The notes under the pieces are model-generated. The model was given only the letters and a program-made list of their open reading frames with translations, did not search any database and was not told where the DNA came from. A DNA stretch of 64,000 nucleotides from IMG/VR virus record IMGVR_UViG_3300032050_000037, positions 49,073 through 113,072 of that record; one strand, given 5' to 3'. Below are positions 7,372-64,000 of this stretch, in pieces; position 1 is the stretch's first letter, and every line of letters starts with the position of its first letter. The DNA is from a virus. A program made the position numbers and the translations under genes.

Positions 7372-7377
7372 GCTTTT

Positions 7378-11229: not shown

Positions 11230-11244
11230 TGGTATAATCGTATG

Positions 11245-11571: not shown

Positions 11572-11576
11572 TTTAA

Positions 11577-26231: not shown

Positions 26232-26298
26232 ATATTATTTACATAGATTTAAATTAAAATTTAAAAAAAATAAAAAAAGAGACAGGTATATATATTGA
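26215..26298 (+). CDS. 27-residue lysine/aromatic-rich peptide
   Basis: Overlaps the 3' end of the previous gene by 17 nt and its stop overlaps the TTG start of the carbamoyltransferase (TTGA). Composition (Lys, Arg, Tyr, Phe, Leu) and size match the peptide at 24351. Both may be membrane- or nucleic-acid-interacting peptides, or spacer peptides for translational coupling. Confidence 0.5.
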   Translation: MILKFKYYLHRFKLKFKKNKKRDRYIY

Positions 26299-35737: not shown

Positions 35738-35968
35738 ATGTTACATTTAAACGAACGTGGCGTAGATATATTTATAAATAAATATAAATCATTTACTAGT
35801 GAAGCATACTGGAACAATTATGATTTAATTATTTGGAAAAAAAATAATAATGGATTTTTTAATATAAAAGGAATATTTAATAAAGCTTGGGGAATAGCAG
35901 ATAAAGTATCTGTAAACAATAAAGGAATGTGGGTTTTACCTAAACAATATGTCAAGTATTTTAAATGA
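35738..35968 (+). CDS. Small basic protein, unknown
   Basis: 76 residues with AAGGAA before the ATG. Rich in Lys, Asn and Trp; 'WVLPKQYVKYF' at the C-terminus. Overlaps whiB by 20 nt, suggesting coupled expression. Confidence 0.68.
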   Translation: MLHLNERGVDIFINKYKSFTSEAYWNNYDLIIWKKNNNGFFNIKGIFNKAWGIADKVSVNNKGMWVLPKQYVKYFK

Positions 35969-36260
35969 TCTTGGAGTAGATAAAGAAGATTTAGATTGGT
36001 GGCATCTTGCTATTTGTAGAGGCATGGATACTAATCTTTTTTATGATAAATACGAAAATGATGAAAAAATTGCAAAAAATATTGACGAAGCCTGCTTAGC
36101 ATGCCCAGTAATATCAATGTGTTATAAATCTGGAATTCAAAATAATGAGTATGGAGTTTGGGGTGGAGTATATTTAAGTTCTGGCTCTATAGATAAAAAT
36201 AAAAATTTACATAAAACAAATGAAGTTTGGAAAAGATTAAAAGTTAAAAATGTATATTGA
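35949..36260 (+). CDS. whiB: WhiB-family Fe-S transcription regulator
   Basis: 103 residues. Four cysteines in the WhiB order ('CRGMD' ... 'ACLACP' ... 'MC') bind a 4Fe-4S cluster, followed by the 'GVWGG' turn. The C-terminal DNA-binding tail is Lys-rich. WhiB proteins occur only in Actinobacteria and their phages, so this is the best host marker in the window. Phage WhiB proteins bind host sigma factor A and can redirect transcription, which fits the unusual promoters here. Confidence 0.92.
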   Translation: MSSILNDLGVDKEDLDWWHLAICRGMDTNLFYDKYENDEKIAKNIDEACLACPVISMCYKSGIQNNEYGVWGGVYLSSGSIDKNKNLHKTNEVWKRLKVKNVY

Positions 36261-52074: not shown

Positions 52075-52494
52075 CTAAATACCCTGTGCTCCGCCTTGAA
52101 GCGCCAGGTCCTGCCCATATTCAGTTGTATTATCTGACTCTTCGTCAGAATCCTCGTCCAGCCATCCGTCGTCATCTAGAGAAGCAATGAATTCATTGTC
52201 GATCATCCAGTCCATGACAGCCTCATCCATTAATTCGGCCCCGTATTCAAGAGTAAAATCGGCAGGCGGGTTATCCCAGAGTTTCTCCCAGATAACATCT
52301 AATGTAGTTCCATCAGTAACAGTATAATCATTAGCAAAGTCATCTTGAGAATAATTATTAAATTTATCTCTGATTATGTCCCAGGCCCAAAGCCATACTA
52401 ATGAAGCACCAATTGGCAAATCATTTAAAACAGAAACCATTTTATCTAATTGAAGTCTTACTTTTGTTCCAAGTTCTTTATCTTTATTATCCAC
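52075..52494 (-). CDS. Acidic protein, unknown
   Basis: 139 residues, strongly acidic in the second half ('DDDGWLDEDSDEESDN'), Trp-rich first half. No motif recognised. Overlaps the upstream gene by 8 nt. Confidence 0.7.
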   Translation of the reverse strand: MDNKDKELGTKVRLQLDKMVSVLNDLPIGASLVWLWAWDIIRDKFNNYSQDDFANDYTVTDGTTLDVIWEKLWDNPPADFTLEYGAELMDEAVMDWMIDNEFIASLDDDGWLDEDSDEESDNTTEYGQDLALQGGAQGI

Positions 52495-52771
52495 GTTTTT
52501 GCGCCCTTTCGTTGATAGCGAATGATAAATTATACGTCAGAGTATAGATTCCTGTCAAGGCGTCTAATTGGCCCTCCCAATATTTACGCTCCATGGATTC
52601 CATTGCGTCATCATAGTCATTCTCTTCCTCTATACGCTTAGCTTCCAGGTATTCCTGTTCAGCTTTATACATAAGGTTCTTTAATTCCCCATGTAGGATG
52701 TCTGTGCCTGTTTCTCCCATATCTACTAATTTTTGTAGGCGGGGGTCAAGAGTATCAGTTTTATAACTCAT
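52487..52771 (-). CDS. Small helical protein, unknown
   Basis: 94 residues from the ATG at 52771, preceded by TTGGAG (the longer in-frame start at 52795 lacks a site). Helical and acidic ('AEQEYLEAKRIEEENDYDDAMESMERKYWEG'). Overlaps the next upstream gene by 11 nt. Confidence 0.65.
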   Translation of the reverse strand: MSYKTDTLDPRLQKLVDMGETGTDILHGELKNLMYKAEQEYLEAKRIEEENDYDDAMESMERKYWEGQLDALTGIYTLTYNLSFAINERAQKRG

Positions 52772-52916
52772 TATACATCTCCAATACATGTTCAATAGAA
52801 TCTATTTGTCCTTTTAAATAATGCCAATCAAATGTCTCAATATCTTGCATTTGATTCATGTCCTGGTACAGGCTAGTTAAATGTATTTTCATATATTCAA
52901 TTAAACTATTAGACAT
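52761..52916 (-). CDS. 51-residue helical protein
   Basis: Helical, with many Met, Leu and Gln ('YMKIHLTSLYQDMNQMQDIETFDWHYLKGQIDSIEHVLEMY'). Overlaps both neighbours (8 and 11 nt), supporting a real operon member. Function unknown. Confidence 0.58.
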   Translation of the reverse strand: MSNSLIEYMKIHLTSLYQDMNQMQDIETFDWHYLKGQIDSIEHVLEMYNEL

Positions 52917-53076
52917 CTTCTGATATATATCCTTCTGCTAATAGACCTTCAAAGAAGTCCCATACAATTAATAATTGTTTATACTGTTGTTCTTCACCCT
53001 GAGACTTGGCGGTATCAATAGCCCAAGTAAGACTATTACCAAATGCCTGTATATCTTTATATGTATAACCTAACAT
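52909..53076 (-). CDS. 55-residue helical protein
   Basis: Acidic helix pair; 'WAIDTAKSQGEEQQYKQLLIVWDFFEGLLAEGY'. Shares its first base with the stop of the 53076 gene. Function unknown. Confidence 0.58.
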   Translation of the reverse strand: MLGYTYKDIQAFGNSLTWAIDTAKSQGEEQQYKQLLIVWDFFEGLLAEGYISEDV

Positions 53077-53315
53077 TATTTTTCCTCATCCCATTCAATA
53101 TAATATTCATCATCTTTATTTAAATTATAATGTTTATTAAATCTACCTTTCAGATAATTTGAATCTGACATATCTGCAATACGCCAATCTGCATAGAATT
53201 GTCCTTCATTTAGATTTTCATACATCCAGTCATCTAATAATTGTTCAGCAATTGTTTGCAGTTCTGCGTCAATTACCATTTGATTTTCATTATCTAGAAA
53301 TGATGTTTCCGCCAT
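53076..53315 (-). CDS. Small acidic protein
   Basis: 79 residues with AACGAAAGGA before the ATG. Acidic; 'AELQTIAEQLLDDWMYENLNEGQFYADWRI' helix. First gene of the operon from the promoter at 53342. Function unknown. Confidence 0.7.
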   Translation of the reverse strand: MAETSFLDNENQMVIDAELQTIAEQLLDDWMYENLNEGQFYADWRIADMSDSNYLKGRFNKHYNLNKDDEYYIEWDEEK

Positions 53316-53341
53316 TTTATTCCTTTCGTTAGTATGACCTA

Positions 53342-53364
53342 ATTATAATTCATACCACTGACAT
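53342..53364 (-). promoter_or_regulatory. Minus-strand promoter ATGTCAGT-N9-TATAAT
   Basis: Box ATGTCAGT (53364-53357), 9 nt, then TATAAT (53347-53342). Member of the 13-copy promoter family. A GTGTGTATCACAC dyad lies just upstream (about 53374-53386). Confidence 0.75.
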
Positions 53365-53418
53365 TTGTCTATATGGTGTGTATCACACAAAGCTTGATCA
53401 AATTTCCAGGAAATATAC

Positions 53419-53600
53419 TTGACATCCGTAAAAGAGATATGCTACCCTCATGTCTTTTTGTGGGCAAATCCCCCAGCTATAAAACTAGGGGATCAGGAAG
53501 AGTGGCTGCTAGGACCTCAACGAAAGGAAAAACCTGCTTTACTTAGCAACTCGATTAGTTGCACCACTCGTATAGATAGGCACCCAGGCCTACCAATATT
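53419..53600. ncRNA. Structured non-coding region carrying the block's ribosome-site motif
   Basis: No reading frame. On the plus strand, TTGACA (53419-53424) and TGCTACCCT (53440-53448) could start an RNA near 53455. That RNA would have hairpins ATCCCCC/AGGGGAT (53468-53493) and GAGTGG/CCACTC (53500-53569), the latter enclosing GCAACT/AGTTGC (53546-53562). AACGAAAGGA (53519-53528), the ribosome-site motif of this block, lies in the loop region. If transcribed from the minus strand (TGTTATAAT near 53590-53582), the RNA would carry the complement, TCCTTTCGTT, and could pair with the block's mRNAs. Strand not decided. Confidence 0.45.
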
Positions 53601-53608
53601 ATAACATA

Positions 53609-54013
53609 TTAGACGAGTAGTCTTTCCATTGCATACTTCTCACAGAATGCTTCTAGGTCCATGGTAAAGATTGCTTCATTCTTCATACCTAAAACTTTAT
53701 TCTCTAGGTTACGATGGTCGTCCTGTTCGTGCAATGAGAATGTTCGCTCTTGCCAATTAATCACGGCAATCTTGTGCTCATTGTCACCAATAGCATTTAC
53801 TTGCAGGCCCCATCCAGTCTCCATATTCCATTGGTCGCCGATTAGATGACTAATAGTAATACGTGTTGCATATGATTCATCATTCCAACGAGGACGGGCA
53901 GCAATAACAGCATCCGCTAATTTGCCTAGCATGTTATATCCAGCCCAGTGTCCATATAGACATATGGTGTCTCCTGCTCCATCTACGAATACAAAGTTTG
54001 CTCTGTCTCCCAT
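53609..54013 (-). CDS. Actinophage-type protein, unknown
   Basis: 134 residues. 'MGDRANFVFVDGAGDTICLYGHWAGYNMLGKLADAV' is a recognisable motif of small proteins widespread in actinophages and occasional plasmids; function unknown. Starts 1 nt before the end of its upstream neighbour's spacing region, same operon as 54015. Confidence 0.75.
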   Translation of the reverse strand: MGDRANFVFVDGAGDTICLYGHWAGYNMLGKLADAVIAARPRWNDESYATRITISHLIGDQWNMETGWGLQVNAIGDNEHKIAVINWQERTFSLHEQDDHRNLENKVLGMKNEAIFTMDLEAFCEKYAMERLLV

Positions 54014-54014
54014 T

Positions 54015-54203
54015 TTAAACCGCCTTTTCTAGTTGAGGTGTTTCTTCCGTTTTATTTAATTCTATCATTTCATAGGCCCACTTGTCTAGGCTTTCTGAAT
54101 TCTTATTTCGGTGATGCCCGCAAAATGCCAGCTCACCAGATGTGCTACGGGCTAACCATTTAGCCTGAGCTGAGCATGAATCACATTTAATCCATTCGCT
54201 CAT
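54015..54203 (-). CDS. DUF7455-like zinc protein
   Basis: 62 residues. 'CDSCSAQAKWLARSTSGELAFCGHH' (C-x2-C ... C-x2-H-H) matches the small DUF7455 family of Actinobacteria. Probably a zinc-binding accessory; function unknown. ATGA overlap with the upstream gene. Confidence 0.78.
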   Translation of the reverse strand: MSEWIKCDSCSAQAKWLARSTSGELAFCGHHRNKNSESLDKWAYEMIELNKTEETPQLEKAV

Positions 54204-54346
54204 AGTTTATTGCTCTCTATCATGTCTGATAATCTATCTAGTAACCAGGAATCGATATCGTTAATATCAATCTCTCTTAGTTTCTCAATTAATTCCTCAC
54301 GAGCAAATTTATACCCGTCCTGGAATCCATCTTTATAATCAGACAT
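54200..54346 (-). CDS. 48-residue helical protein
   Basis: 'YKDGFQDGYKFAREELIEKLREIDINDIDSWLLDRLSDMIE': begins with an 'FQDGY' helix frequent in small phage proteins. Overlaps both neighbours (4 and 1 nt). Function unknown. Confidence 0.62.
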   Translation of the reverse strand: MSDYKDGFQDGYKFAREELIEKLREIDINDIDSWLLDRLSDMIESNKL

Positions 54347-54561
54347 TACAATCCTCTCAAATATCCAGTAGGTTCATATTCAGCGACATAAGTTTCTTTT
54401 AAATTAAACTTATCTCTAATCCTACTTACCTTCTCAATATTACCAGTTCCGATATTGAAAGTCAATGATGTCATGGGCTGAGGATCCAGCCCAATCAAAT
54501 CTGCTTCCCAGTAAGCAGCCTTTAGTGCTTGCTGGGATGGAGCGGTTAGTTCGATATACAT
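54346..54561 (-). CDS. Small protein, unknown
   Basis: 71 residues from the ATG at 54561 (TAATG overlap with the upstream gene). 'YIELTAPSQQALKAAYWEADLIGLDP' beginning and 'KETYVAEYEPTGY' end suggest a compact alpha/beta fold. Function unknown. Confidence 0.65.
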   Translation of the reverse strand: MYIELTAPSQQALKAAYWEADLIGLDPQPMTSLTFNIGTGNIEKVSRIRDKFNLKETYVAEYEPTGYLRGL

Positions 54562-55178
54562 TACCAATCCACATCCGCATCTTCAACATCAAATGTATCT
54601 ACAGTTAAATCACCATTGTATGAATCAATAGTTAGATTATCTTGTAGGAAGTATTTAGCATCAAAGTTTTCAACTTCCTCTAAAGGAATTTCATATTCAG
54701 CCTCAACACTAATTTGAGCGGTTATACGAATTGTTTGCTTTGGCTCGTGTCCAAGGATTTCACAAAGGTCACGAAGAATGTCTTCCTTATCTATATTTGG
54801 GTTGTACCAGCCATCTGCAGTTAAGTTAGATGTGATTTGATTAATTAAACTAACATTCTGCATAAGCGTCTTCTCAGTGTACTTAACTTGGTCTAATTGA
54901 TATTCCAGGCTAGTTACCTTGATTGTTGGGTAAGTTACCTCACCGTCGGTAATCGACTTGTATGTCACAAGTAGATTAGGGTTATAGGTCTCAGGGACCG
55001 TATTTGTTTCCATTTCTTTCCTTTCGTTGTTTGGGTGTATTGTAGCATCTTCCACTGACAATAGATTACATTCTATTCCACAGTGCCAAATGTTTCTGAA
55101 TTCATCTTTACGAGTTACCTCTATTAAAGCATCACATTCTGTGCAGAGATGTGAATCTTTAAACCAGCTTTCTGTCAT
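54561..55178 (-). CDS. Zinc-ribbon protein with in-frame internal promoter and second start
   Basis: 205 residues from the ATG at 55178 (GGTGGAA upstream, ATGA overlap with 55175). The first ~45 residues hold C-x2-C ('CTEC') and 'HCGIEC', a zinc site. The rest is acidic alpha/beta with no family. A complete family promoter (55061-55039) and AACGAAAGGA ribosome site lie inside, leading to an in-frame ATG at 55013 that would give a 150-residue short form. Either two isoforms are made, or a once-separate zinc gene lost its stop. Confidence 0.65.
   Translation of the reverse strand: MTESWFKDSHLCTECDALIEVTRKDEFRNIWHCGIECNLLSVEDATIHPNNERKEMETNTVPETYNPNLLVTYKSITDGEVTYPTIKVTSLEYQLDQVKYTEKTLMQNVSLINQITSNLTADGWYNPNIDKEDILRDLCEILGHEPKQTIRITAQISVEAEYEIPLEEVENFDAKYFLQDNLTIDSYNGDLTVDTFDVEDADVDW
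55039..55061 (-). promoter_or_regulatory. Minus-strand promoter TTGTCAGT-N9-TACAAT (inside a gene)
   Basis: Box TTGTCAGT (55061-55054), 9 nt, TACAAT (55044-55039), with TGC before the -10. Followed by AACGAAAGGA and ATG 55013. It lies inside the longer reading frame from 55178. Confidence 0.75.
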
Positions 55179-55942
55179 GCTTCCACCTTTTCTAATAGAG
55201 AAACGTGTGTATCGCATTGTGCCATAGCCTCTTCATCTTGCCAAGAGCCTTGGTTACATTCTGAACAGAATTCACCACAGTCATTGTCACAATAACTTAA
55301 TGTGTCAAAAGATTGGCAGGCATAGCAACGATTCTCATATTCTAGAATCTCTGTGACATCACCACGGACAATCTCTAACTCTCCGCCCCAACCTTGCTCC
55401 TCTTCATATTCTAAAGTAAGCAAAGAGTTAGGAACCATATTAGATAGTTTAGTTAGAATTGTGACGGCAGGAGACCAAGCAGTATTATATTTATATATAA
55501 GCCAGTTATCATCACCGTCTGATTTATATTCAAGTAATTCTGTATCAGGATATTCCTCATCATCTGATACAGCAACATCCCATTTGGTACCCCAATTAGA
55601 GTTATTCCATGAATACCAATCTTTAGCGGTTTTAGCACGTTCAACAGATTTAGCAAACCAATCAGGGTCATTATTTATATCTATACCACTGCGGTCAGGT
55701 TGCTGTGCATATTCCTCATCTGTAATTCCATCATCCTTATATGAATGAATGTTGAAGAATGCAAATACAGGATTACTATATGTTACTTGTTTAATTTTAG
55801 TTGGGAATCCATGTGCACTAATGTCTCCCATTCCATGATTCTCTATTGCTAATGTAAATGGAGCATTTAGTTTATCCTTGATATAATCTATCTCAGACTT
55901 AGGTCCTTGGATTGTTAATGTGTTATATACCCAGTTTGGCAT
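55175..55942 (-). CDS. YubB ferredoxin-like (DUF1281) protein with zinc-ribbon tail
   Basis: 255 residues from the ATG at 55942 behind AACGAAAGGA. 'MPNWVYNTLTIQGPKSEID' and 'YNTAWSPAVTILTKLSNM...LTLEYEEEQGWGGELE' match the DUF1281/YubB plasmid and phage family. A C-terminal zinc ribbon (CYAC ... CDNDCGEFCSEC) is added. Such proteins occur on plasmids and phages beside anti-restriction genes; function unproven. Confidence 0.75.
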   Translation of the reverse strand: MPNWVYNTLTIQGPKSEIDYIKDKLNAPFTLAIENHGMGDISAHGFPTKIKQVTYSNPVFAFFNIHSYKDDGITDEEYAQQPDRSGIDINNDPDWFAKSVERAKTAKDWYSWNNSNWGTKWDVAVSDDEEYPDTELLEYKSDGDDNWLIYKYNTAWSPAVTILTKLSNMVPNSLLTLEYEEEQGWGGELEIVRGDVTEILEYENRCYACQSFDTLSYCDNDCGEFCSECNQGSWQDEEAMAQCDTHVSLLEKVEA

Positions 55943-55966
55943 ATTATTCCTTTCGTTGTTGGCCCA

Positions 55967-55989
55967 ATTATAGCGGATGAGACTGACAA
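55967..55989 (-). promoter_or_regulatory. Minus-strand promoter TTGTCAGT-N9-TATAAT
   Basis: Box TTGTCAGT (55989-55982), 9 nt, TATAAT (55972-55967). Drives 55942 and the genes behind it. Confidence 0.78.
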
Positions 55990-56062
55990 TTACAAGCATT
56001 TTCAGGAAAAAAATCCCCTTGCCGTAAGGAAGAAAATCGGCCTTCACCATCTGGGGGCTTTG

Positions 56063-56136
56063 CGATCCGTATGAGACTTGAACTCACGACCTCTACCGTG
56101 ACAGGGTAGCGCTCTAACCAACTGAGCTAACGGACC
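56063..56136 (-). tRNA. tRNA-Asp (GTC anticodon)
   Basis: Acceptor GGTCCGT/ACGGATC (one G-T pair), D-arm GCTC/GAGC, anticodon stem CTACC/GGTAG with loop CTGTCAC (GTC), T-arm GTCGT..., discriminator G; CCA not encoded. It lies between the DUF932 gene and the 55942 operon, transcribed with them on the minus strand. Confidence 0.9.
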
Positions 56137-56142
56137 TAAGAG

Positions 56143-56160
56143 GGGCCCCTTGCGGGGCCC
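56143..56160. terminator. GC-rich hairpin terminator after the DUF932 gene
   Basis: GGGCCCC (56143-56149), loop TTGC, GGGGCCC (56154-56160). Very stable; the T-rich side is on the plus strand (ATTTATTT), while the minus strand has only CTCTT. Probably acts between DUF932 and tRNA-Asp or as a processing stop. Confidence 0.65.
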
Positions 56161-56166
56161 ATTTAT

Positions 56167-57183
56167 TTAGATGAGTTGCAAATTAGTTTGAACAACTTTA
56201 AGCAGACGATTTTTTTCTGCGTTAATAGTTGCATCAAATCCACTTGCAGAGGCTAACAGATTTTCATTGTTAGCACCACGAGCAGAACGGTGCCAATCTA
56301 AACGCTCAGTTAAAGCATTAAGAGCACCCCACGCATTACCAGCGATTGTATGATTAAATTCGCCAGTATAAATATCGTTGATTAAATCAACTTTATTTTG
56401 CCATTTTTTAACAGCACCCTTAGTATCCTTAGTAGGTTTAGGATATGCAGCCAAAATGATATCGTTAAATTGTTGAGCAGTAATTTCCTTCTCAATCATC
56501 AACTTAGCCATTTTATCGAATTCATCCATGTATGCATTAGCAAGACCTAAAGTCTCACGAGCAACTTGCACACGACCTTGTGCGGTTTGTGTGTGGCGAA
56601 TTTTGAATGATTGCTTTACGCCATCACGCTTTTTTGTACGACCTAACGCAAGGTTAAGAGTGTTAGCACATACAACACGAACAGGTGTAATGCTTGCTTG
56701 AATAGCAATAGTTCCGTCATGTGATGTGTTAATAAGCAAATAAGTTTTTACTTTATCTGCCACGCCATTAGGGTCTAATACAGTCTCACGCTCTAATGCA
56801 AGAGAGCCGAATACAACACGACCACCACGAATTGAGCCAGCAGTCTCCCAACGTCCACCGCCGTCAAGAATGTTATCTCCGAATGCAAATAATTCTTCAT
56901 TTTGCAATGGTACATAACGCTCACCAACAATTCCTAAAACGTCGGTTTGTGTTTTGTCCGTAGGATTAGTACGCACAACATATTGATAGTTTTTATCGCT
57001 TGTTAATGTAGATGGAATTTCTAATTCCTCTAAGCGAACATTCCAACCATTAAGGTTAGCAGCCTCTAGCATTTCGCTAGTTGTTTTTTCTTCTGTGAAC
57101 ACAGTACCTAAACCATGCCACGCAGGTTCACGGAATGATGCAAAACTTGCAACACCGTTTTGAGTTTCTAACTCATGAGCCAT
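56167..57183 (-). CDS. DUF932 phage/plasmid-like protein
   Basis: 338 residues with AACGAAAGGA before the ATG. 'PAWHGLGTVF', 'RYVPLQNEELFAFGDNI', 'VFGSLALERETVL' and 'TPVRVVCANTLNLAL' are the DUF932 signature. The family occurs in phages and plasmids, often highly expressed early; function unknown. Codon use here is richer in GC than the plus-strand genes, suggesting expression level or origin effects. Confidence 0.88.
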   Translation of the reverse strand: MAHELETQNGVASFASFREPAWHGLGTVFTEEKTTSEMLEAANLNGWNVRLEELEIPSTLTSDKNYQYVVRTNPTDKTQTDVLGIVGERYVPLQNEELFAFGDNILDGGGRWETAGSIRGGRVVFGSLALERETVLDPNGVADKVKTYLLINTSHDGTIAIQASITPVRVVCANTLNLALGRTKKRDGVKQSFKIRHTQTAQGRVQVARETLGLANAYMDEFDKMAKLMIEKEITAQQFNDIILAAYPKPTKDTKGAVKKWQNKVDLINDIYTGEFNHTIAGNAWGALNALTERLDWHRSARGANNENLLASASGFDATINAEKNRLLKVVQTNLQLI

Positions 57184-57211
57184 TTTTTATCCTTTCGTTT
57201 TGAGTTGCCTA

Positions 57212-57234
57212 ATTTTAACACACATGACTGACAT
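57212..57234 (-). promoter_or_regulatory. Minus-strand promoter ATGTCAGT-N9-TAAAAT
   Basis: Box ATGTCAGT (57234-57227), 9 nt, TAAAAT (57217-57212) preceded by TGT. Drives the DUF932 gene. Confidence 0.78.
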
Positions 57235-57262
57235 TGACAAGACTAACACACATTTTCAGGAG

Positions 57263-57294
57263 TTATCCACAAGGGCCCGTAAACCTGTGGAAAA
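57263..57294. promoter_or_regulatory. DnaA-box-like pair TTATCCACA / TGTGGAAAA
   Basis: TTATCCACA (57263-57271) is an exact consensus DnaA box; TGTGGAAAA (57286-57294) is a near-match in inverse orientation. They lie between the terminator at 57295 and the DUF932 promoter. A similar cluster is at 61451-61524. Confidence 0.5.
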
Positions 57295-57313
57295 CCCCGC
57301 AGCTACTTGCGGG
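57295..57313 (-). terminator. Minus-strand terminator
   Basis: On the minus strand CCCGCA AGTAG CTGCGGGG, then TTTTCC. Closes the unit containing the gene at 57373. Confidence 0.65.
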
Positions 57314-57372
57314 CAGGGGAAGATGGGCCAGGGATCTAGATGATTACACGACACAAACCTGGCCCAAGATTA

Positions 57373-57585
57373 TTAGATTAGACTATGAATGTCCTCTGGA
57401 AAGAAAGCAGCAAATATTTTTTTATTTTGATTAGTATCAAAAACATATGCTTTGATATTGCCTTGAAATCTATTTAGATTATCTTTTACAAGACGGGTTA
57501 AAGAATTACGATTTAAGTTTTCTTCTGAGTAGATAGTTAAATCGTGAGCTTTATTAGCATCATATATTTCTACACGATAACGCAT
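57373..57585 (-). CDS. Small protein, unknown
   Basis: 70 residues with AAAGGA before the ATG. 'MRYRVEIYDANKAHDLTIYSEENLNRNSLTRLVKDNLNRFQGNIKAYVFD' looks like a small ferredoxin-like alpha/beta fold that recurs in actinophages. Function unknown. Confidence 0.7.
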   Translation of the reverse strand: MRYRVEIYDANKAHDLTIYSEENLNRNSLTRLVKDNLNRFQGNIKAYVFDTNQNKKIFAAFFPEDIHSLI

Positions 57586-57612
57586 TTTATTCCTTTTGTA
57601 GTAGGGACATGA

Positions 57613-57647
57613 ATTGTAGCATGGGGGCTAGGTTTTGTCTAGCCCCC
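57613..57647 (-). promoter_or_regulatory. Terminator with nested promoter TAGACA-N17-TACAAT (minus strand)
   Basis: GGGGGCTAG/CTAGCCCCC form a 9-bp hairpin (57623-57631 and 57639-57647). On the minus strand the -35 TAGACA (57641-57636) spans the 5' arm and loop, and TACAAT is at 57618-57613 (spacing 17). The hairpin sequence thus closes the 57655 gene and opens the 57585 gene. Confidence 0.72.
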
Positions 57648-57654
57648 GCTAAGA

Positions 57655-58077
57655 TTACAAGTATCTTGCGATAGCGTTGTAAGTAGAAGTAGAAACTACC
57701 TCCTCATCGGTCATCTTGAGAATACGGATAGCATTTTCCATTTCCTCTTTCATTTCACGATAAGTATGAAGGTGAATAACCTCGTAGTCCTTTTCAGGCT
57801 CTTTTGGAAAATCCTTTTCATCGCATACAAGGTCAAAATCTACATTGAGAGTTTTGTTCCAAGAGCGATAGTTGGTGCGTAGGTTTTCTGCTTTTGCTAT
57901 TTGAGCAACGGCATACTTACCAAGTTCCTTTGACCACTTCTCACGGGCTTTATTATACTTTGCTTCGTTTTCATCTTGTTTCTTAAAGTCAGCCTCTACT
58001 TGTGCTAACTTTGCTTCTAAGGCTTTGATAACCTTAGCAGTAGGTATTTTTACCTGTATTGCTTTTCCTCTTGCCAT
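57655..58077 (-). CDS. Coiled-coil protein, unknown
   Basis: 140 residues; basic N-terminus, coiled coil (~15-75) with 'ALEAKLAQVEADFKKQDENEAKY', and an acidic helical C-terminus. Behind AACGAAAGGA. Function unknown. Confidence 0.72.
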   Translation of the reverse strand: MARGKAIQVKIPTAKVIKALEAKLAQVEADFKKQDENEAKYNKAREKWSKELGKYAVAQIAKAENLRTNYRSWNKTLNVDFDLVCDEKDFPKEPEKDYEVIHLHTYREMKEEMENAIRILKMTDEEVVSTSTYNAIARYL

Positions 58078-58106
58078 TTATTTTTCCTTTCGTTGGGTTT
58101 TGGTTT

Positions 58107-58142
58107 ATTATAGCGGATACCACCGACAAGCAGTATCCGCTA
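58107..58142 (-). promoter_or_regulatory. Minus-strand promoter TTGTCGGT-N9-TATAAT within a 10-bp inverted repeat
   Basis: Box TTGTCGGT (58129-58122), 9 nt, TATAAT (58112-58107). TAGCGGATAC (58111-58120) and GTATCCGCTA (58133-58142) are perfect inverted arms around the box. Drives 58077. Confidence 0.8.
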
Positions 58143-58146
58143 ACTA

Positions 58147-58290
58147 TTACTTAACTGATACTGAAGTCCAGCGTTCTTTGCCATTTACATCTAGCAAGAC
58201 ACGATTTACTCCGCTTGGGTGATTATCAATAGCCTTGATAATTCCAGTAATACCACTTTGAGTAGTTGTGTATAGTTGTCCGATTTCCAT
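58147..58290 (-). CDS. 47-residue beta-rich protein
   Basis: ATG at 58290 behind AACGAAAGGA (a longer in-frame start lies before the promoter -10 and is excluded). 'IGQLYTTTQSGITGIIKAIDNHPSGVNRVLLDVNGKERWTSV' looks like a small SH3-like barrel. Function unknown. Confidence 0.65.
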   Translation of the reverse strand: MEIGQLYTTTQSGITGIIKAIDNHPSGVNRVLLDVNGKERWTSVSVK

Positions 58291-58315
58291 TTTGTTTCCT
58301 TTCGTTTGAAGTTGT

Positions 58316-58350
58316 ATTATAGCACCCACCACCGACAATTAGTAGTCGGT
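58316..58350 (-). promoter_or_regulatory. Minus-strand promoter TTGTCGGT-N9-TATAAT with inverted half-site
   Basis: Box TTGTCGGT (58338-58331), 9 nt, TATAAT (58321-58316). A second GTCGGT in inverse orientation (58345-58350) forms a dyad with it. Drives 58290. Confidence 0.78.
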
Positions 58351-58617
58351 TTCAGGTAGCCAAGCCTCTAGGTGGTGAGCCTCTACAATAGCGCAGGCAG
58401 GTGCTTTAGTCATGCCCTTCCAAGATACGCCTTCAGGTAGAGTTATCTTTCTGTTATAGTCCTCATCGTAGTAAGCATCAATAGCATCTATACAAGGTTG
58501 GATCATAGATTTAGGAACGGGTGGGTAATGATTACCCTGTAAGTGCATTCCTATCTGAGTTTCCAAGTCTAAGTCTAATAAGCCATCGGCTAATTCTGTT
58601 GCTAGATTACTCCCCAT
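58339..58617 (-). CDS. Small protein, unknown
   Basis: 92 residues, acidic N-terminus, 'YPPVPKSMIQPCIDAIDAYYDEDYNRKITLPEGVSWKGMTKAPACAIVEAHHLEAW'. The latter half resembles small actinophage proteins. Its 3' end overlaps the promoter box of the next unit; 11-nt overlap with the upstream gene. Confidence 0.68.
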   Translation of the reverse strand: MGSNLATELADGLLDLDLETQIGMHLQGNHYPPVPKSMIQPCIDAIDAYYDEDYNRKITLPEGVSWKGMTKAPACAIVEAHHLEAWLPETDY

Positions 58618-58891
58618 TATTATCCTCCTCCAAGATAGTTTCGGTTAAGTTGTCCATTTCGTTAATACTATCAACAAGGTCTGACATTTGTTGTTCAGTT
58701 AATAATACTTTAGTAGTAAGGTCTGCTACTTTGCTTGCTAACGCTACTGAATACATATAGATATATCTAGGGAATTGATTATCATTAAGTTCATTTCTGC
58801 GTGTGTGTAGTTCGCCAGCCAATGCCATAATTTCATCATCATATATGGCTTCTTTGGTTGCGCTTGCTATTGATATTGCTGTTGCTAACAT
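58607..58891 (-). CDS. Helical protein, unknown
   Basis: 94 residues, helical, acidic C-terminus. AAAGGA precedes the ATG. First gene after the promoter at 58915. Function unknown. Confidence 0.68.
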   Translation of the reverse strand: MLATAISIASATKEAIYDDEIMALAGELHTRRNELNDNQFPRYIYMYSVALASKVADLTTKVLLTEQQMSDLVDSINEMDNLTETILEEDNNGE

Positions 58892-58914
58892 ATTTTCCTT
58901 TCGTTGTGTATGGA

Positions 58915-58937
58915 ATTATATCAGTATTAACTGACAT
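58915..58937 (-). promoter_or_regulatory. Minus-strand promoter ATGTCAGT-N9-TATAAT
   Basis: Box ATGTCAGT (58937-58930), 9 nt, TATAAT (58920-58915), TGA before the -10. A CRP-like palindrome lies upstream at 58965-58980. Confidence 0.8.
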
Positions 58938-58964
58938 TTATTGCGACACGCCCATATTTTCCAG

Positions 58965-58980
58965 GGTGATTTACATCACA
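58965..58980. promoter_or_regulatory. CRP/GlxR-like site GGTG-N8-CACA
   Basis: GGTGATTTACATCACA, internally GTGAT/ATCAC symmetric. Centred about 64 bp upstream of the predicted start of the 58915 promoter, a class-I activator distance. Confidence 0.6.
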
Positions 58981-58999
58981 CCCATAACGACACGCCCGA

Positions 59000-59018
59000 C
59001 CCCGCAGCTAGTGTGGGG
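59000..59018. terminator. GC hairpin between transcription units
   Basis: CCCCGCA/TGTGGGG (59000-59006 and 59012-59018) with T-run on the plus strand. Lies just downstream of the 59023 gene on the minus strand; probably a unit boundary. Confidence 0.5.
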
Positions 59019-59022
59019 GCTT

Positions 59023-59151
59023 TTATCCGCTAAGCCCGTCTCCATTTGAATCATATTTATTATAAGTAACTAAATAAATTATTATTGCGAATGGGGCCAC
59101 TAGTACCAACGATAACAGGGCCCCAATTATTTCTCCGATTAAAAAATCCAT
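59023..59151 (-). CDS. 42-residue single-TM peptide
   Basis: ATG at 59151, 4 nt after the gp88-like stop. 'FLIGEIIGALLSLVLVAPFAIIIYLV' is one TM helix, followed by an acidic tail with 'DSNGDG'. Last gene of its unit. Function unknown. Confidence 0.58.
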   Translation of the reverse strand: MDFLIGEIIGALLSLVLVAPFAIIIYLVTYNKYDSNGDGLSG

Positions 59152-59155
59152 GGAC

Positions 59156-59905
59156 CTACTTTTTACTAGCAGAAAATCTAACATCTGCTTTTCCAAATAC
59201 ACACAAGCCACACGATACACAAGCGGAACCATTAGCAGAAATTAGCGGAATGCTTTTATTATTTTCAGGACATTTAGCGCCAGGCTTACCGATTAATTCT
59301 TTCATAGTATTTTCGGTGACAGCAAAAGTTTTTCCTAAATAAGCCAATCTAATTTTAGTACCAGTCTTACGCAGATCATGCGCTATATCTTTATTCTCAT
59401 CATCCGTAGAATAATAAAGAGACAAGTTATCAATACCGTCTAGGATAATGGCAGCAGACTTTACACGAGTGTACACCCAGAATTGCACGTCGACATTATT
59501 ATTAATAACAGTCTTCCATGCATATGCATAAGTATCATTAAAGAAATCGCCGTCCCAGTGGATACGGAATAACTTTTTAGCATTGCGCTTATCACAATCT
59601 TTTTTAAAGTCATCAATCATTGCAGATAGAAGAGAAACCATAGTTTCTTGATCAGCGTCTTTTAATAAATTCCAATTATGCATGAGCACGTCTTTAACGC
59701 CTTTATATACTTTTTCTAATTTGCCTGCATAGCATACGCTTTCGCACACGCTAGTGGCGCCAGGACATGAGAATGCTTTTCCTGCAGGCAGCCCGAATGT
59801 ATTTGCAATTGTAGGAGTTTTACCGTTAGGGGAAACGGCATTAGCTACTTTACGATCATTAGATCTTTTTAACATGGGAGGAATTATAGCAGCTTGAGCT
59901 GACAT
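59156..59905 (-). CDS. Mycobacteriophage L5 gp88-like protein
   Basis: 249 residues. 'KTPTIANTFGLPAGKAFSCPGATSVCESVCYAG' (Cys-rich N-terminus), 'LFRIHWDGDFFNDTYAYAW' and a C-terminal 'CVSCGLCVFGKADVRF' define the gp88 family found in actinophages and plasmids. The Cys layout suggests an Fe-S or zinc centre. The family function is unknown. Confidence 0.85.
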   Translation of the reverse strand: MSAQAAIIPPMLKRSNDRKVANAVSPNGKTPTIANTFGLPAGKAFSCPGATSVCESVCYAGKLEKVYKGVKDVLMHNWNLLKDADQETMVSLLSAMIDDFKKDCDKRNAKKLFRIHWDGDFFNDTYAYAWKTVINNNVDVQFWVYTRVKSAAIILDGIDNLSLYYSTDDENKDIAHDLRKTGTKIRLAYLGKTFAVTENTMKELIGKPGAKCPENNKSIPLISANGSACVSCGLCVFGKADVRFSASKK

Positions 59906-60060
59906 TATAGGTCCCCCATTTCTGCATCAGCCATGCGTGTCATAGCCCAATCTTGCGCTAGATCACGATCATACACGGCCATGCCTTCGCTAGTATAACC
60001 ACGGGCACAAATTGTGCAAATAGAATAGTTTGTGCAATAGCAGGAATTGATATCGTTCAT
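59905..60060 (-). CDS. Small Cys-rich protein
   Basis: 51 residues. 'CYCTNYSICTICARG' gives C-x-C and C-x2-C pairs. Its stop shares a base with the gp88-like ATG, so coupled. GAAAGG precedes its ATG. Confidence 0.62.
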   Translation of the reverse strand: MNDINSCYCTNYSICTICARGYTSEGMAVYDRDLAQDWAMTRMADAEMGDL

Positions 60061-60087
60061 TAGTTGACCTTTCGTTAAGTTGAGAGA

Positions 60088-60110
60088 ATGCTATCAGGTC
60101 AGACTGACAT
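60088..60110 (-). promoter_or_regulatory. Minus-strand promoter ATGTCAGT-N9-TAGCAT
   Basis: Box ATGTCAGT (60110-60103), 9 nt, TAGCAT (60093-60088), TGA before the -10. Drives 60060 and the gp88-like gene. Confidence 0.72.
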
Positions 60111-60149
60111 TTACAAATCGACACGCCGAATTCCAGGAATTTTTAAATA

Positions 60150-60165
60150 TGTGTCTTAAATCACA
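60150..60165. promoter_or_regulatory. CRP/GlxR-like site TGTG-N8-CACA
   Basis: TGTGTCTTAAATCACA, about 76 bp upstream of the predicted start from the 60088 promoter. Matches the CRP-family half-site spacing TGTGA-N6-TCACA except one position per arm. Confidence 0.55.
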
Positions 60166-60167
60166 AA

Positions 60168-60192
60168 GCGCCCCCACAGCTTTTGTGGGCGC
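60168..60192. terminator. Strong hairpin terminator
   Basis: GCGCCC-c-CACA pairs with TGTGGGCGC (one bulge) around a short loop. On the minus strand it is followed by TTTGTGATTT. Separates the 60213-60704 genes from the next promoter. Confidence 0.68.
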
Positions 60193-60212
60193 ATCGAACA
60201 TTTGTTCTAATA

Positions 60213-60312
60213 TTATCTAGAAGCTTTTTTATGTTTTATTTTTCTAGTATATTTTTTTTTATTGCGAACAGGTTGCGCCGCATTACTACGGCGCAATTCC
60301 TGAATTCGTTTT
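60213..60312 (-). CDS. Possible small basic peptide, start unclear
   Basis: An open frame ending at 60213 is Lys/Arg-rich ('LRRSNAAQPVRNKKKYTRKIKHKKASR'). Its usable start is unclear: a TTG lies in the strong hairpin 60273-60296, and the earlier ATG is inside the neighbouring gene. Basic composition favours a real nucleic-acid-binding peptide, but it could be non-coding. Confidence 0.3.
60273..60296. repeat. 8-bp-stem hairpin TTGCGCCG/CGGCGCAA
   Basis: Perfect GC-rich stem (60273-60280, 60289-60296) with an 8-nt loop in an AT-rich setting, without T-tract. Stable RNA structure at the start of the possible basic peptide; may control its translation. Confidence 0.6.
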
Positions 60313-60315
60313 ACT

Positions 60316-60507
60316 TTATTTCGAAGAGTAGTTTGGAATATGATAACCACCAGCCTTATAAAAAATTTGTGCGTCAAACTTTGGATTATCTTTCGCAAAC
60401 ATTAAAGCAAAATCAACAACAACTTTAGAGAATAAAGCGGGGTGAACTTTATCGCTCATATATTTTAGAATTTCAGCGGTAGCAACATAGTCTTTACGGG
60501 TCATCAT
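60316..60507 (-). CDS. Conserved-type actinophage protein, unknown
   Basis: 63 residues. 'RKDYVATAEILKYM....HPALFSKVVVDFALMFAKDNPKFDAQIFYKAGGY' matches a short protein motif repeated in many actinobacterial and other phages ('R-K-D-Y ... F ... D-N-P-x-F-D ... F'). Function unknown. ATGA overlap with the upstream gene. Confidence 0.72.
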   Translation of the reverse strand: MMTRKDYVATAEILKYMSDKVHPALFSKVVVDFALMFAKDNPKFDAQIFYKAGGYHIPNYSSK

Positions 60508-60704
60508 TTTGCCGACACCAATCCAATCGCATTAAAGTTTTTTGTATACATTTTGCCATTTGGCATTTCTAAATTATAGGTTGCGTATTCTTTAGCAAAT
60601 CCATAGTCTTTACATCTAGCAAAAGCCTCAAACGCTTCTAATGCGTCAGAGAATTGGTGTGTAAATTCTAGGTTGCCGTCATAGTAAGTAAATAGTTTAT
60701 ACAT
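60504..60704 (-). CDS. Small protein, unknown
   Basis: 66 residues from the ATG at 60704 behind AACGAAAGGA. 'MYKLFTYYDGNLEFTHQFSDALEAFEAFARCKDYGFAKEYATYNLEMPNGKMYTKNF': a small alpha/beta fold common in phages. Function unknown. Confidence 0.7.
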   Translation of the reverse strand: MYKLFTYYDGNLEFTHQFSDALEAFEAFARCKDYGFAKEYATYNLEMPNGKMYTKNFNAIGLVSAK

Positions 60705-60749
60705 TAGTTTTCCTTTCGTTGGGTTGAACATAGGCATTTTGTTATTGTT

Positions 60750-60783
60750 ATTGTATCGCTTACCACCGACAAAGTGGCAAGCG
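60750..60783 (-). promoter_or_regulatory. Minus-strand promoter TTGTCGGT-N9-TACAAT with inverted arms
   Basis: Box TTGTCGGT (60772-60765), 9 nt, TACAAT (60755-60750). CGCTT-a-CCAC (60757-60766) and GTGG-c-AAGCG (60774-60783) form an inverted repeat around the box. Confidence 0.78.
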
Positions 60784-60814
60784 TTGAGCAATCATCACAG
60801 AGAAAAATTTCCAT

Positions 60815-60958
60815 TTAGAAATCCAATTCTAAACTTTGTGGATTACATAAGCAAGGCTCAAGGTCAAAAGTATCCTCGTTGCCATAGTAAAGCCAACCTT
60901 GTCCGTAGCATGTGCCACAGTTTTTAATTTCCTCTAGTAGAGATTTTATTTTTGCCAT
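60815..60958 (-). CDS. Small zinc-binding protein
   Basis: 47 residues behind AACGAAAGGA. C-x2-C with 'CGTCYGQGW' (DnaJ-zinc-finger-like knuckle) and 'CLC' near the end. Function unknown. Confidence 0.65.
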   Translation of the reverse strand: MAKIKSLLEEIKNCGTCYGQGWLYYGNEDTFDLEPCLCNPQSLELDF

Positions 60959-60987
60959 TTTAGTTTTCCTTTCGTTTTGTTAGCGGT

Positions 60988-61010
60988 ATTGTATCAGTTA
61001 TCGCTGACAA
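60988..61010 (-). promoter_or_regulatory. Minus-strand promoter TTGTCAGC-N9-TACAAT
   Basis: Box TTGTCAGC (61010-61003), 9 nt, TACAAT (60993-60988) with TGA before it. The box overlaps the last codons of the 60994 gene, whose TGA stop forms the extended -10. Drives 60958. Confidence 0.75.
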
Positions 61011-61140
61011 TTGGCAAAACGGGAGAGCCTTCCAACTCTAACCCAATTTCTAAATCTAACAATTCTTCGGAAGTGGCTTCGGATAAATCTACCCAGCCAG
61101 CCCCGTTTTCATTAACACGGAAAATTTCTATGTATCCCAT
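60994..61140 (-). CDS. Small acidic protein
   Basis: 48 residues, TAATG overlap with the upstream gene. Acidic ('LSEATSEELLDLEIGLELEG'). Its 3' end encodes the next promoter's box. Function unknown. Confidence 0.6.
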   Translation of the reverse strand: MGYIEIFRVNENGAGWVDLSEATSEELLDLEIGLELEGSPVLPIVSDN

Positions 61141-61343
61141 TATTCACCGACTTTCACCGCTATTGTGCGGAATTTATTTTTCAAAGTATGAGGAGAAAAG
61201 ATTTCTACCAAATACGCTTCGGTATTTTCTCCATACCAAATTGGTTGATTAGATTTCTCTGCTGAAACAATTTCTCCAGTAAGAGTTTTTGAATTATAGG
61301 TTTTACCAATTAGTAAATCCTCAATTGTGTATAAGTTAGCCAT
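61140..61343 (-). CDS. Small beta-rich protein
   Basis: 67 residues behind AACGAAAGGA. 'YTIEDLLIGKTYNSKTLTGEIVSAEKSNQPIWYGENTEAYLVEI' looks like a small beta-barrel. Function unknown. Confidence 0.68.
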   Translation of the reverse strand: MANLYTIEDLLIGKTYNSKTLTGEIVSAEKSNQPIWYGENTEAYLVEIFSPHTLKNKFRTIAVKVGE

Positions 61344-61369
61344 TTAAGTTTTCCTTTCGTTATGTCGTT

Positions 61370-61404
61370 ATTTTAACATAATCCACCGACAATTACCACC
61401 GACA
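61370..61404 (-). promoter_or_regulatory. Minus-strand promoter TTGTCGGT-N9-TAAAAT with second direct box
   Basis: Box TTGTCGGT (61392-61385), 9 nt, TAAAAT (61375-61370), TGT before it. A second box-like GTGTCGGT (61404-61397) lies 12 bp upstream in the same direction. Confidence 0.78.
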
Positions 61405-61430
61405 CGCCGTAAATTACAAGAATGTAATTA

Positions 61431-61446
61431 TGTGTTCTTAATCACA
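61431..61446. promoter_or_regulatory. CRP/GlxR-like site TGTG-N8-CACA
   Basis: TGTGTTCTTAATCACA, about 75 bp upstream of the start predicted for the 61370 promoter, the same distance as at 60150. Confidence 0.55.
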
Positions 61447-61450
61447 CGAG

Positions 61451-61524
61451 TTATCCACGACACGCCCGAAGTTTTCCACAGATTTCCAGGGTTTTCCACA
61501 ATCTGTTCATAAACCTGTGGATAA
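61451..61524. promoter_or_regulatory. Cluster of DnaA-box-like sequences (origin candidate)
   Basis: TTATCCACG (61451-61459), TTTTCCACA (61472-61480 and 61492-61500) and TGTGGATAA (61516-61524, inverse TTATCCACA) lie within 74 bp, with no gene in the interval. It sits between the 61370 promoter and the upstream operon's last gene. Candidate host-DnaA binding region for replication initiation or DnaA-linked control. Confidence 0.5.
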
Positions 61525-61576
61525 CCCCCACAAAAGCCTGCGGGCAGCTGTCGCCCTTGTCAAGGCGACACGCCGA

Positions 61577-61675
61577 TTATTCTTTGTGAGGTTGCTCACA
61601 TACGCATTTAGTATATGCGCCAGCGTTAAGCCTGCCACATTTAGGGCAGGTATAGAATCCGCTAGGGTTAGCCAT
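61577..61675 (-). CDS. 32-residue zinc-binding peptide
   Basis: 'YTCPKCGRLNAGAYTKCVCEQPH' carries C-x2-C and C-x-C, a rubredoxin-like zinc knuckle. Shares its first base with the previous stop. Last gene of the 62284 operon. Confidence 0.58.
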   Translation of the reverse strand: MANPSGFYTCPKCGRLNAGAYTKCVCEQPHKE

Positions 61676-61809
61676 TATCTACCCCACTTATATCCTACTA
61701 GATCGCAAGCGTATCCGTCTGCGGTATTGTGGCAGTTAGCATAGACGGGCTCAGAGTATAAATCAAATAGCGCAATCGCTATCAGTAAAGCAATCGCTAA
61801 CCTAATCAT
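61675..61809 (-). CDS. 44-residue exported peptide
   Basis: N-terminal signal-like helix ('RLAIALLIAIALFDLYSEPVYA') with likely cleavage after A24, and a mature part with two Cys ('NCHNTADGYACDLV') that could form a disulfide. Possible secreted microprotein. ATGA overlap upstream. Confidence 0.58.
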   Translation of the reverse strand: MIRLAIALLIAIALFDLYSEPVYANCHNTADGYACDLVGYKWGR

Positions 61810-61946
61810 TTACGACCCTTCCACAATTTAACACCGATTACAATAATAAAAGCGGTGGCAATACTTAGCCAATTAAACTCAGTATAAAACCAATCAGTAG
61901 AAATCGTTAAACCAAAATCGCTTAATTCTAAATCAAAATAAATCAT
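61806..61946 (-). CDS. 46-residue single-TM peptide
   Basis: C-terminal TM helix ('WLSIATAFIIVIGVKLW') and basic end 'KGRK'. Overlaps both neighbours. Function unknown. Confidence 0.58.
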   Translation of the reverse strand: MIYFDLELSDFGLTISTDWFYTEFNWLSIATAFIIVIGVKLWKGRK

Positions 61947-62119
61947 TATTCGGCACTCTCCCAATCTAGTGTTAATTCATTTTCGATTACCTCATCAAGG
62001 CTAATCATGTCCTCATCAAATAGGCTCTCCTCATTATGTTTATCTATCGCCTCTAGTTCGTCTAGGTGGCGATAAGCGTCTGCGACATCTGCTTGAATAG
62101 TGTCCCATTTAGTCATCAT
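61946..62119 (-). CDS. 57-residue acidic protein
   Basis: Begins with tandem ATGs (62119 or 62116) behind AGGAG. Strongly acidic helices. Shares its last base with the following start. Function unknown. Confidence 0.62.
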   Translation of the reverse strand: MMTKWDTIQADVADAYRHLDELEAIDKHNEESLFDEDMISLDEVIENELTLDWESAE

Positions 62120-62125
62120 TAGTTA

Positions 62126-62284
62126 TTACTCCTGTTCCATTTTAGAGATAAAGTAAGAGAACTTTATCTGAGGTTTAACGCTGTTTAGTTCGTCTATTGT
62201 TTTTACTACATCTTTCATAGATGAAGCGGTGAAGCCAATGCCCTTTAGTTGAGAGCCTTGCCATATTGAGTATGTTATTTTCAT
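62126..62284 (-). CDS. 52-residue protein, unknown
   Basis: Behind AACGAAAGGA. 'KITYSIWQGSQLKGIGFTASSMKDVVKTIDELNS': small alpha/beta fold. First gene of a five-gene operon from the 62313 promoter. Confidence 0.63.
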   Translation of the reverse strand: MKITYSIWQGSQLKGIGFTASSMKDVVKTIDELNSVKPQIKFSYFISKMEQE

Positions 62285-62312
62285 TTAGTTTTCCTTTCGT
62301 TGTTATGAGATA

Positions 62313-62353
62313 AATCTAGCACATGCTACCGACAAAACGCAAGCCTTGTCGGT
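62313..62353 (-). promoter_or_regulatory. Minus-strand promoter TTGTCGGT-N9-TAGATT with inverted second box
   Basis: Box TTGTCGGT (62335-62328), 9 nt, TAGATT (62318-62313) with TGC before it. A second TTGTCGGT in the opposite direction (62346-62353) makes a perfect 8-bp dyad. Confidence 0.78.
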
Positions 62354-62363
62354 GTGATGTTGC

Positions 62364-62477
62364 TCACCAACATGATGAGCAAGAGCAATGGGATTGATGT
62401 CCCTTAGTAAACGGAGTATGAGCAGGACCTTGTCCCTCATAGGCGATACATGTATCACAAGTTAATTCGTTATTCAT
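62364..62477 (-). CDS. 37-residue Cys-rich peptide
   Basis: 'CDTC' near residue 7 and 'CSCSSC' at the end form a probable zinc site. ATG behind AACGAAAGGA. First minus-strand gene of the block; possible regulator. Confidence 0.55.
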   Translation of the reverse strand: MNNELTCDTCIAYEGQGPAHTPFTKGHQSHCSCSSCW

Positions 62478-62503
62478 ATTTATATCCTTTCGTTATATAT
62501 ATA

Positions 62504-62526
62504 ACTCTACATGAGGGGACTGACAA
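62504..62526 (-). promoter_or_regulatory. Minus-strand promoter TTGTCAGT-N9-TAGAGT
   Basis: Box TTGTCAGT (62526-62519), 9 nt, TAGAGT (62509-62504). Outermost member of the promoter family. Confidence 0.7.
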
Positions 62527-63470: not shown

Positions 63471-64000
63471 TTAGTCAATTAAAAATGAAATATCTTTTCT
63501 TGTTTTAATGACACAAGGAACTATTGTATGATTAGGATCATTATGTCTATCTATTGCAATAGAGTCTAATGAACTAAATATTTCTGGGGTGATTCTTTCA
63601 GCTTTTAATTTATTTTCATATGCATCTAAATACTCTTGAAATGTCATAGTTGGATTTTCTATTTTATTATATTCTCTTCTTTTTTCGATTTTCACTGATC
63701 CGTCGAAATATGATAAAAATTGTCTTATATAATATTTAGAATTTCCTTCTTTTAATCTCTTAACACCATGATATACATCTACAGGAAATATTAATCCGTC
63801 TCCTGCTTGCATTTTATATTCAAAATAATCCTCTACAAGCCAAGCCTCACCAGTCTCACCAGAGATAGCATCTACATATGGGACCTTTTCTACATTTTCA
63901 TGTTTAAAGAATATAATGTCTCCACCTTCGTAATCATCGTTAATATATATATTAAAATTAAAAGAATGATTTTGATCATAGGCTCCACCTTTAATTACAT
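63471..64000 (-). CDS. 2OG-Fe(II) dioxygenase (5' end outside window)
   Basis: The frame is open from the window edge to the stop at 63471 (about 176 residues visible). 'YINDDYEGGDIIFF' and 'MQAGDGLIFPVDVYHGVKRL' (second iron His), then 'YYIRQFLSYF' with the likely 2OG Arg, match P4Hc-type oxygenases. The first H-x-D pair lies beyond the window. The C-terminal ~90 residues are an extra helical part. Sixth oxygenase in the region. Confidence 0.83.
   Translation of the reverse strand, partial: VIKGGAYDQNHSFNFNIYINDDYEGGDIIFFKHENVEKVPYVDAISGETGEAWLVEDYFEYKMQAGDGLIFPVDVYHGVKRLKEGNSKYYIRQFLSYFDGSVKIEKRREYNKIENPTMTFQEYLDAYENKLKAERITPEIFSSLDSIAIDRHNDPNHTIVPCVIKTRKDISFLID

Follow-up and report, generated by a model that had tools for sequence, protein, structure and literature searches.

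Putative PafBC-type (RecA-NDp) promoters in front of a minus-strand gene block of an uncultured actinophage

Here, we report that a minus-strand block of small genes in a viral genome (IMG/VR record IMGVR_UViG_3300032050_000037) carries 14 copies of one promoter, each made of a box, wTGTCRGT, and a -10 element at a fixed distance. The window, i.e., the whole stretch of DNA analyzed, is 64,000 nucleotides (nt) long and covers positions 49,073 to 113,072 of the record; coordinates below are those of the window. We consider it likely, with a probability of roughly 0.78, that we are dealing with 14 PafBC-dependent (RecA-NDp) promoters, which would be read by activated host PafBC together with RNA polymerase (RNAP) carrying sigma-A. 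The RecA-NDp consensus is tTGTCRgtg-8nt-TAnnnT (PMC5656591), and PafBC works through this motif (PMC6789036). PafBC is wedged between promoter and sigma-A domain 4, PafB lying on the -26 motif and PafC on the sigma domain; in mycobacteria it is activated by single-stranded DNA (ssDNA) in its WYL domains, and RNAP must already occupy the promoter for active PafBC to bind (PMC11804915). Judged by sequence, the phage box with its spacing is this promoter, which belongs to the LexA-independent DNA-damage response of actinobacteria: the distance from gtg to TAnnnT is 8 nt, as in the consensus, exactly so at 14 of 14 window sites.

The pattern WTGTCRGY-N9-TANNNT has 14 matches in the window, compared with a mean of 0.22 and a maximum of 2 in 100 dinucleotide shuffles. 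In the whole record of 113,072 base pairs (bp), the matches number 14 on the minus strand and zero on the plus strand, with one to the reversed pattern, and no site of the family lies outside the minus-strand block of the window. The box itself occurs 24 times anywhere in the record, and the ten copies outside the family are without any -10 at spacing 9. The first-pass annotation had listed 13 minus-strand boxes with N9 and a -10, and every one is at the position given; the family has 14 members, though, since the site at 59905 (ATGTCAGC-N9-TATAAT) had been overlooked. Its expectation that the family is confined to the minus strand also held over the full genome. The 14 sites, all on the minus strand, are as follows.

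Promoter 1, 62504..62526 (-): TTGTCAGT-N9-TAGAGT, with an open reading frame (ORF) of 37 amino acids downstream, start at 62477.
Promoter 2, 62313..62335 (-): TTGTCGGT-N9-TAGATT, gene start at 62284.
Promoter 3, 61370..61392 (-): TTGTCGGT-N9-TAAAAT, gene start at 61343; this is the box-driven family commonest in relatives.
Promoter 4, 60988..61010 (-): TTGTCAGC-N9-TACAAT, gene start at 60958.
Promoter 5, 60750..60772 (-): TTGTCGGT-N9-TACAAT, gene start at 60704.
Promoter 6, 60088..60110 (-): ATGTCAGT-N9-TAGCAT, gene start at 60060.
Promoter 7, 59883..59905 (-): ATGTCAGC-N9-TATAAT, expected start at the ATG at 59875 of a GP88-family gene.
Promoter 8, 58915..58937 (-): ATGTCAGT-N9-TATAAT, gene start at 58891.
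Promoter 9, 58316..58338 (-): TTGTCGGT-N9-TATAAT, gene start at 58290.
Promoter 10, 58107..58129 (-): TTGTCGGT-N9-TATAAT, gene start at 58077.
Promoter 11, 57212..57234 (-): ATGTCAGT-N9-TAAAAT, with a partial -35 (TTGTCA) at 17 nt and a DUF932 gene downstream.
Promoter 12, 55967..55989 (-): TTGTCAGT-N9-TATAAT, with an Api92-like (DUF1281_C) gene downstream.
Promoter 13, 55039..55061 (-): TTGTCAGT-N9-TACAAT, gene start at 55013, overlapping a longer ORF frame from 55178.
Promoter 14, 53342..53364 (-): ATGTCAGT-N9-TATAAT, gene start at 53315.

All 14 boxes fit WTGTCRGY, the gap from the box to TAnnnT is exactly 9 nt at every one, and G follows at -21 in seven. Information content over the 14 sites is found at the box positions -28 to -22 and at the -10. 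The TG-type extension noticed earlier before the -10 was borne out, with G at -14 in 12 sites and T at -15 in nine. Positions -36 to -32 hold little information, and the -35 is weak overall; some sites, however, have partial -35 elements (TTGTCA at 57234, TTGCCA at 61010, TAGACA at 53364), and at least five of the six letters of TTGACA are present at 3 of 14, with a spacing of 17–18 nt. Downstream of the 13 sites listed earlier there is acgaaagg plus a start codon, so the claim that the sites precede minus-strand genes with a common leader stands for them (ribosome-binding sites for 13 of 14), but not for the site at 59905, which coincides with the GP88 start. Promoter 7 places the expected +1 on the ATG (59875) of this gene, and a leaderless mRNA is predicted.

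The same pattern was then found in bacteria. In the genome of Leucobacter edaphi, the phage pattern gives 18 sites versus two for the reversed control, and sites lie upstream of recA, ruvA, uvrB, and polA (N-terminal domains matched; polA assigned on its 5'-3' exonuclease domains), with further ones at a gyrase-B-type gene, SRAP, and an exonuclease III-type gene. Positions that the pattern leaves unconstrained agree as well: G at -21/-20 is found in 89/94% of the Leucobacter sites and in 72/63% of 714 viral sites. Among 397 sampled Actinomycetota genomes scanned for strict sites, PafC was present in 13 of the 13 genomes that had at least four such sites and a PafC scan (tally by eye); PafC was above the cut-off in 191 of 297 sampled Actinomycetota. 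Compared with RecA-NDp/PafBC promoters such as mycobacterial recA P1, the phage sites share the box, the spacing, the -26 position, and the G at -21/-20; their -35 is weak overall, with the exceptions given above. They differ in occurring 14-fold in one gene block, whereas the bacterial ones are scattered at repair genes, and in having a stronger -10 (TATAAT), TG at -15/-14, and phage-specific genes downstream. One actinobacterial genome (G350) has RecA-NDp-like sites in runs about 133 bp apart on contigs C22 and C39; these are perhaps a repeat array.

The promoter family is widespread among uncultured viruses. At least 119 IMG/VR stretches carry the promoter-plus-leader pattern at spacing 9, compared with one stretch each for the reversed, N10, and N8 control patterns. 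Among the 119 stretches listed, 671 boxes are at spacing 9 versus at most 31 at any other spacing, and none of these stretches has sites on both strands. A motif search in relatives had been suggested, and box clusters (3–16 sites, nearly always on one strand) were found in 30 of 30 IMG/VR records searched whole. Twelve cultured actinophages with DUF932 or WhiB homologues have 0–2 sites per genome, i.e., chance level. The DUF932 blocks of Stanwilliamsviridae and other actinophages, whose DUF932 gene is homologous (up to 55% identity), are likewise made of small genes, function not known, near the genome end; the cultured examples differ from the present block in their 0–2 chance-level sites per genome. 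Searched in bacterial and archaeal genomes, the promoter-plus-leader pattern had 15 matches, scattered over unrelated taxa; none has a second site, and we regard them as chance.

A second line of evidence comes from orthologous genes. We gathered 80 related loci (L285-L364) by DUF932 alone, the motif not being used, and box density varies widely among them. Loci with few boxes are richer in same-strand TTGAC[AT]-N16-18-TAnnnT promoters (Spearman -0.39, p = 4e-4), and no such fall with box density was seen on the opposite strand of these loci. Orthologues of DUF932, Api92, and GP88 have either the box or TTGAC[AT]-N16-18-TAnnnT, some of them both, and the promoter class goes with the box density in the rest of the locus (p = 3e-7 for DUF932, 9e-6 for Api92, and 0.01 for GP88, duplicate sequences being removed and phylogeny being ignored in the p values). 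Hybrid promoters, with TTGACA directly before TTGTCAG and an extended -10, are found upstream of DUF932 in L293, L294, L337, L347, and others. The predicted promoter class is thus exchanged at orthologous genes, PafBC-type box versus ordinary sigma-A -35, and the two elements are most simply read as performing the same job. Such an interchange is expected under sigma adaptation, where an activator replaces the -35.

Which factor, then, would read the box? No WYL-domain (PafBC-type) gene was found in any of 51 records, i.e., the phage and 50 relatives. This argues against a phage-encoded PafBC and makes the host PafBC the likely reader; the box being the actinobacterial PafBC/RecA-NDp element, the host DNA-damage activator is also a more parsimonious reader than a new phage activator. 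The dedicated recognition system that the first-pass annotation had put forward is therefore supported in outline, and of its three candidates a modified sigma contact comes near the known PafBC sigma adaptation, while a phage activator and a WhiB-SigA complex fit less well.

An activator of the phage's own, MotA-like and not of WYL type, could read the box and recruit sigma-A, the likeness to the PafBC box being convergence or mimicry. The dense boxes in phages, limited to one block, the -10s stronger than in bacteria, and two small gene families enriched near DUF932 in box-rich relatives are all consistent with such a protein; we nevertheless hold it unlikely, since box, spacing, and free flanking positions are identical to those of the bacterial element, both enriched families are absent from the window despite its 14 boxes, and Pfam and PHROGs recognized no regulator among the block genes (selected genes were searched, with no dedicated MotA/AsiA search). 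A search for a phage cofactor by gene-content correlation led to the same two families, which track box density and are missing here; truncation of loci confounds this test. In T4 middle promoters, MotA and AsiA appropriate sigma, and a box near -35 substitutes for the -35. The present promoters resemble these in that a box near -35 would replace it for one class of phage genes and in the predicted redirection of the sigma domain 4 contact. T4, however, uses phage proteins and a box centered near -30, whereas here the center is near -25.5 and matches the bacterial activator site.

A complex of phage WhiB with SigA is a very doubtful reader of the box. Besides the phage itself, 21 of 50 records with the motif have a WhiB gene (many of the records are fragments), and WhiB7/WhiB1-SigA complexes are, like PafBC, partners of sigma-A domain 4 in actinobacteria, but no connection was found between the box and any WhiB-dependent promoter. 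The distribution of the box does not follow the phage WhiB gene: Streptomyces phage Annadreamy (126 kilobases (kb)), whose WhiB is among the closest phage homologues, is without the promoter family and has a single chance-level site, and WhiB was not found in the available sequence of the long motif-bearing records G002, G003, and G022, G002 and G022 being motif-rich. WhiB7-type promoters retain a -35 with AT-rich DNA upstream, and the box is unlike them. The earlier suggestion of WhiB-SigA is thus disfavored.

Equally improbable, in our judgment, is that these are plain extended -10 sigma-A promoters with the box acting as an operator to which a repressor or some other spacer-bound protein attaches, like the stoperators of mycobacteriophage L5. 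The strong G at -14 (12 of 14) and the partial or perfect -35 at some sites would suit this; a repressor site, however, would not require one fixed spacing, and across relatives the box is exchanged for the -35, as it should be if an activator replaces the -35. That the boxes are a decoy titrating host PafBC and damping the host DNA-damage response, transcription being secondary, is hardly credible: 14 sites per genome multiplied by the phage copy number could have such an effect, but a good -10 is present throughout, a ribosome-binding site and start codon follow at a conserved distance wherever the mRNA would have a leader, i.e., at 13 of 14 sites, and active PafBC needs RNAP already at the promoter (PMC11804915).

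Several observations weigh against the PafBC reading itself. The strong TATAAT and the usual TG at -15/-14 set the phage sites apart from bacterial ones, and a -35 with at least five of six letters of TTGACA is found at 18% of the 714 viral sites versus about 0.4% in shifted controls; with such -35s and strong -10s, no activator may be needed at some sites. A perfect TTGACA plus the box is found at some DUF932 promoters, in the hybrid form TTGACA-TTGTCAG...TAAAAT, and the swap statistics take no account of phylogeny. No RecA-NDp-type promoter was found at recA in the five low-GC (35–39%) Actinomycetota genomes with a readable recA locus or in one at 42%, and among these six more than one genome-wide match was found only in G276 (36% GC). 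Given these low-GC recA loci, PafBC in the phage's own host is what we infer. Three possible pointers to the host were set aside: at least two of the box sites in G276 look incidental; small rhodopsin-bearing genomes have PafC-like matches but no such recA promoter and a high GC; and the peroxidase of the phage has best matches of about 66% over many genomes, which is uninformative.

The gene block and the other features that bear on the argument are listed below.

52075..62477 (-): minus-strand block of small genes under the promoter family.
56062-56136: tRNA-Asp, inside the minus-strand block.
56167..57183 (-): DUF932 gene (PF06067, 165 bits), with homologues in Streptomyces, Mycobacterium, and other actinophages.
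55175..55942 (-): Api92-like gene (PF18406).
59156..59905 (-): GP88-family gene (PF17338, 187 bits), start probably the ATG at 59875.
35949..36260 (+): phage WhiB gene (PF02467, 44.8 bits).

The phage WhiB is related to solved WhiB3/WhiB1 structures, and its gene indicates an actinobacterial host. The opening bases of the record, about 183 bp, are found again at about 63818-64000 of the window and form a direct terminal repeat. The genome is therefore probably complete, with a circular (permuted) assembly of about 112.9 kb, and gene absences from it are fairly informative. On the plus strand, a replication set at 4155-12581 comprises a DnaB-like helicase, a DnaG-like primase, a RecA-like recombinase, and a bacterial-type Pol III alpha of 1093 amino acids, and it is without PafBC-type promoters. 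Further phage genes are a heme peroxidase (46177-48219, PF00141, 236 bits; about 66% identity to many actinobacterial enzymes over about 600 amino acids), a subtilase (38341-39462), and a thioredoxin (40197-40499). A sugar-type gene run at 21955-27776 has glycosyltransferase 61, a nucleotidyltransferase-HAD fusion, and a carbamoyltransferase. A 189-amino acid protein at 37349-37918 has by eye the look of a proteasome-beta-like Ntn hydrolase, with no Pfam or PDB sequence match.

In our model, PafB of the activated host complex would contact the -26 box wTGTCRGTg, PafC would hold sigma-A domain 4, and RNA polymerase-sigma-A would then initiate even where the -35 is weak or missing. The DNA-damage sensor of the host probably switches on the block genes, i.e., the block would be on when ssDNA appears from replication intermediates, from host DNA breakdown, or in an already damaged host; this tie to ssDNA follows from the ssDNA activation of PafBC in mycobacteria. 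The block may thus be a delayed-early class, or it may fire faster in damaged cells, and the -10s, stronger than in bacteria, make basal activity possible. We infer both the reading of these sites by PafBC and the timing of firing in infection.

On balance, we lean toward the view that in a large group of uncultured aquatic actinophages one whole gene block has passed from the control of housekeeping -35 promoters to that of host PafBC promoters, making the ssDNA-sensing DNA-damage activator of the host a switch of phage expression, and that the -35 relatives record this move. In titles and abstracts of the open literature on PafBC or RecA-NDp with phage, subscription papers lying outside the search, we found no study of such phage promoters; the promoter element is already known, and what appears to be new is a phage block that uses it as its promoter set. 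PafBC promoters have so far been known as a bacterial repair regulon. One-strand clusters of wTGTCRGT-N9-TAnnnT are a DNA signature by which this phage group could be detected in metagenomes, and the related loci offer a natural promoter-swap series for studying how PafBC replaces a -35. If our reading is true, it would be a new kind of phage transcription takeover, in which a sigma adaptation is borrowed instead of a sigma factor or activator being supplied; phage gene expression would be coupled to cellular ssDNA, and the pafBC status of the host is predicted to affect infection.

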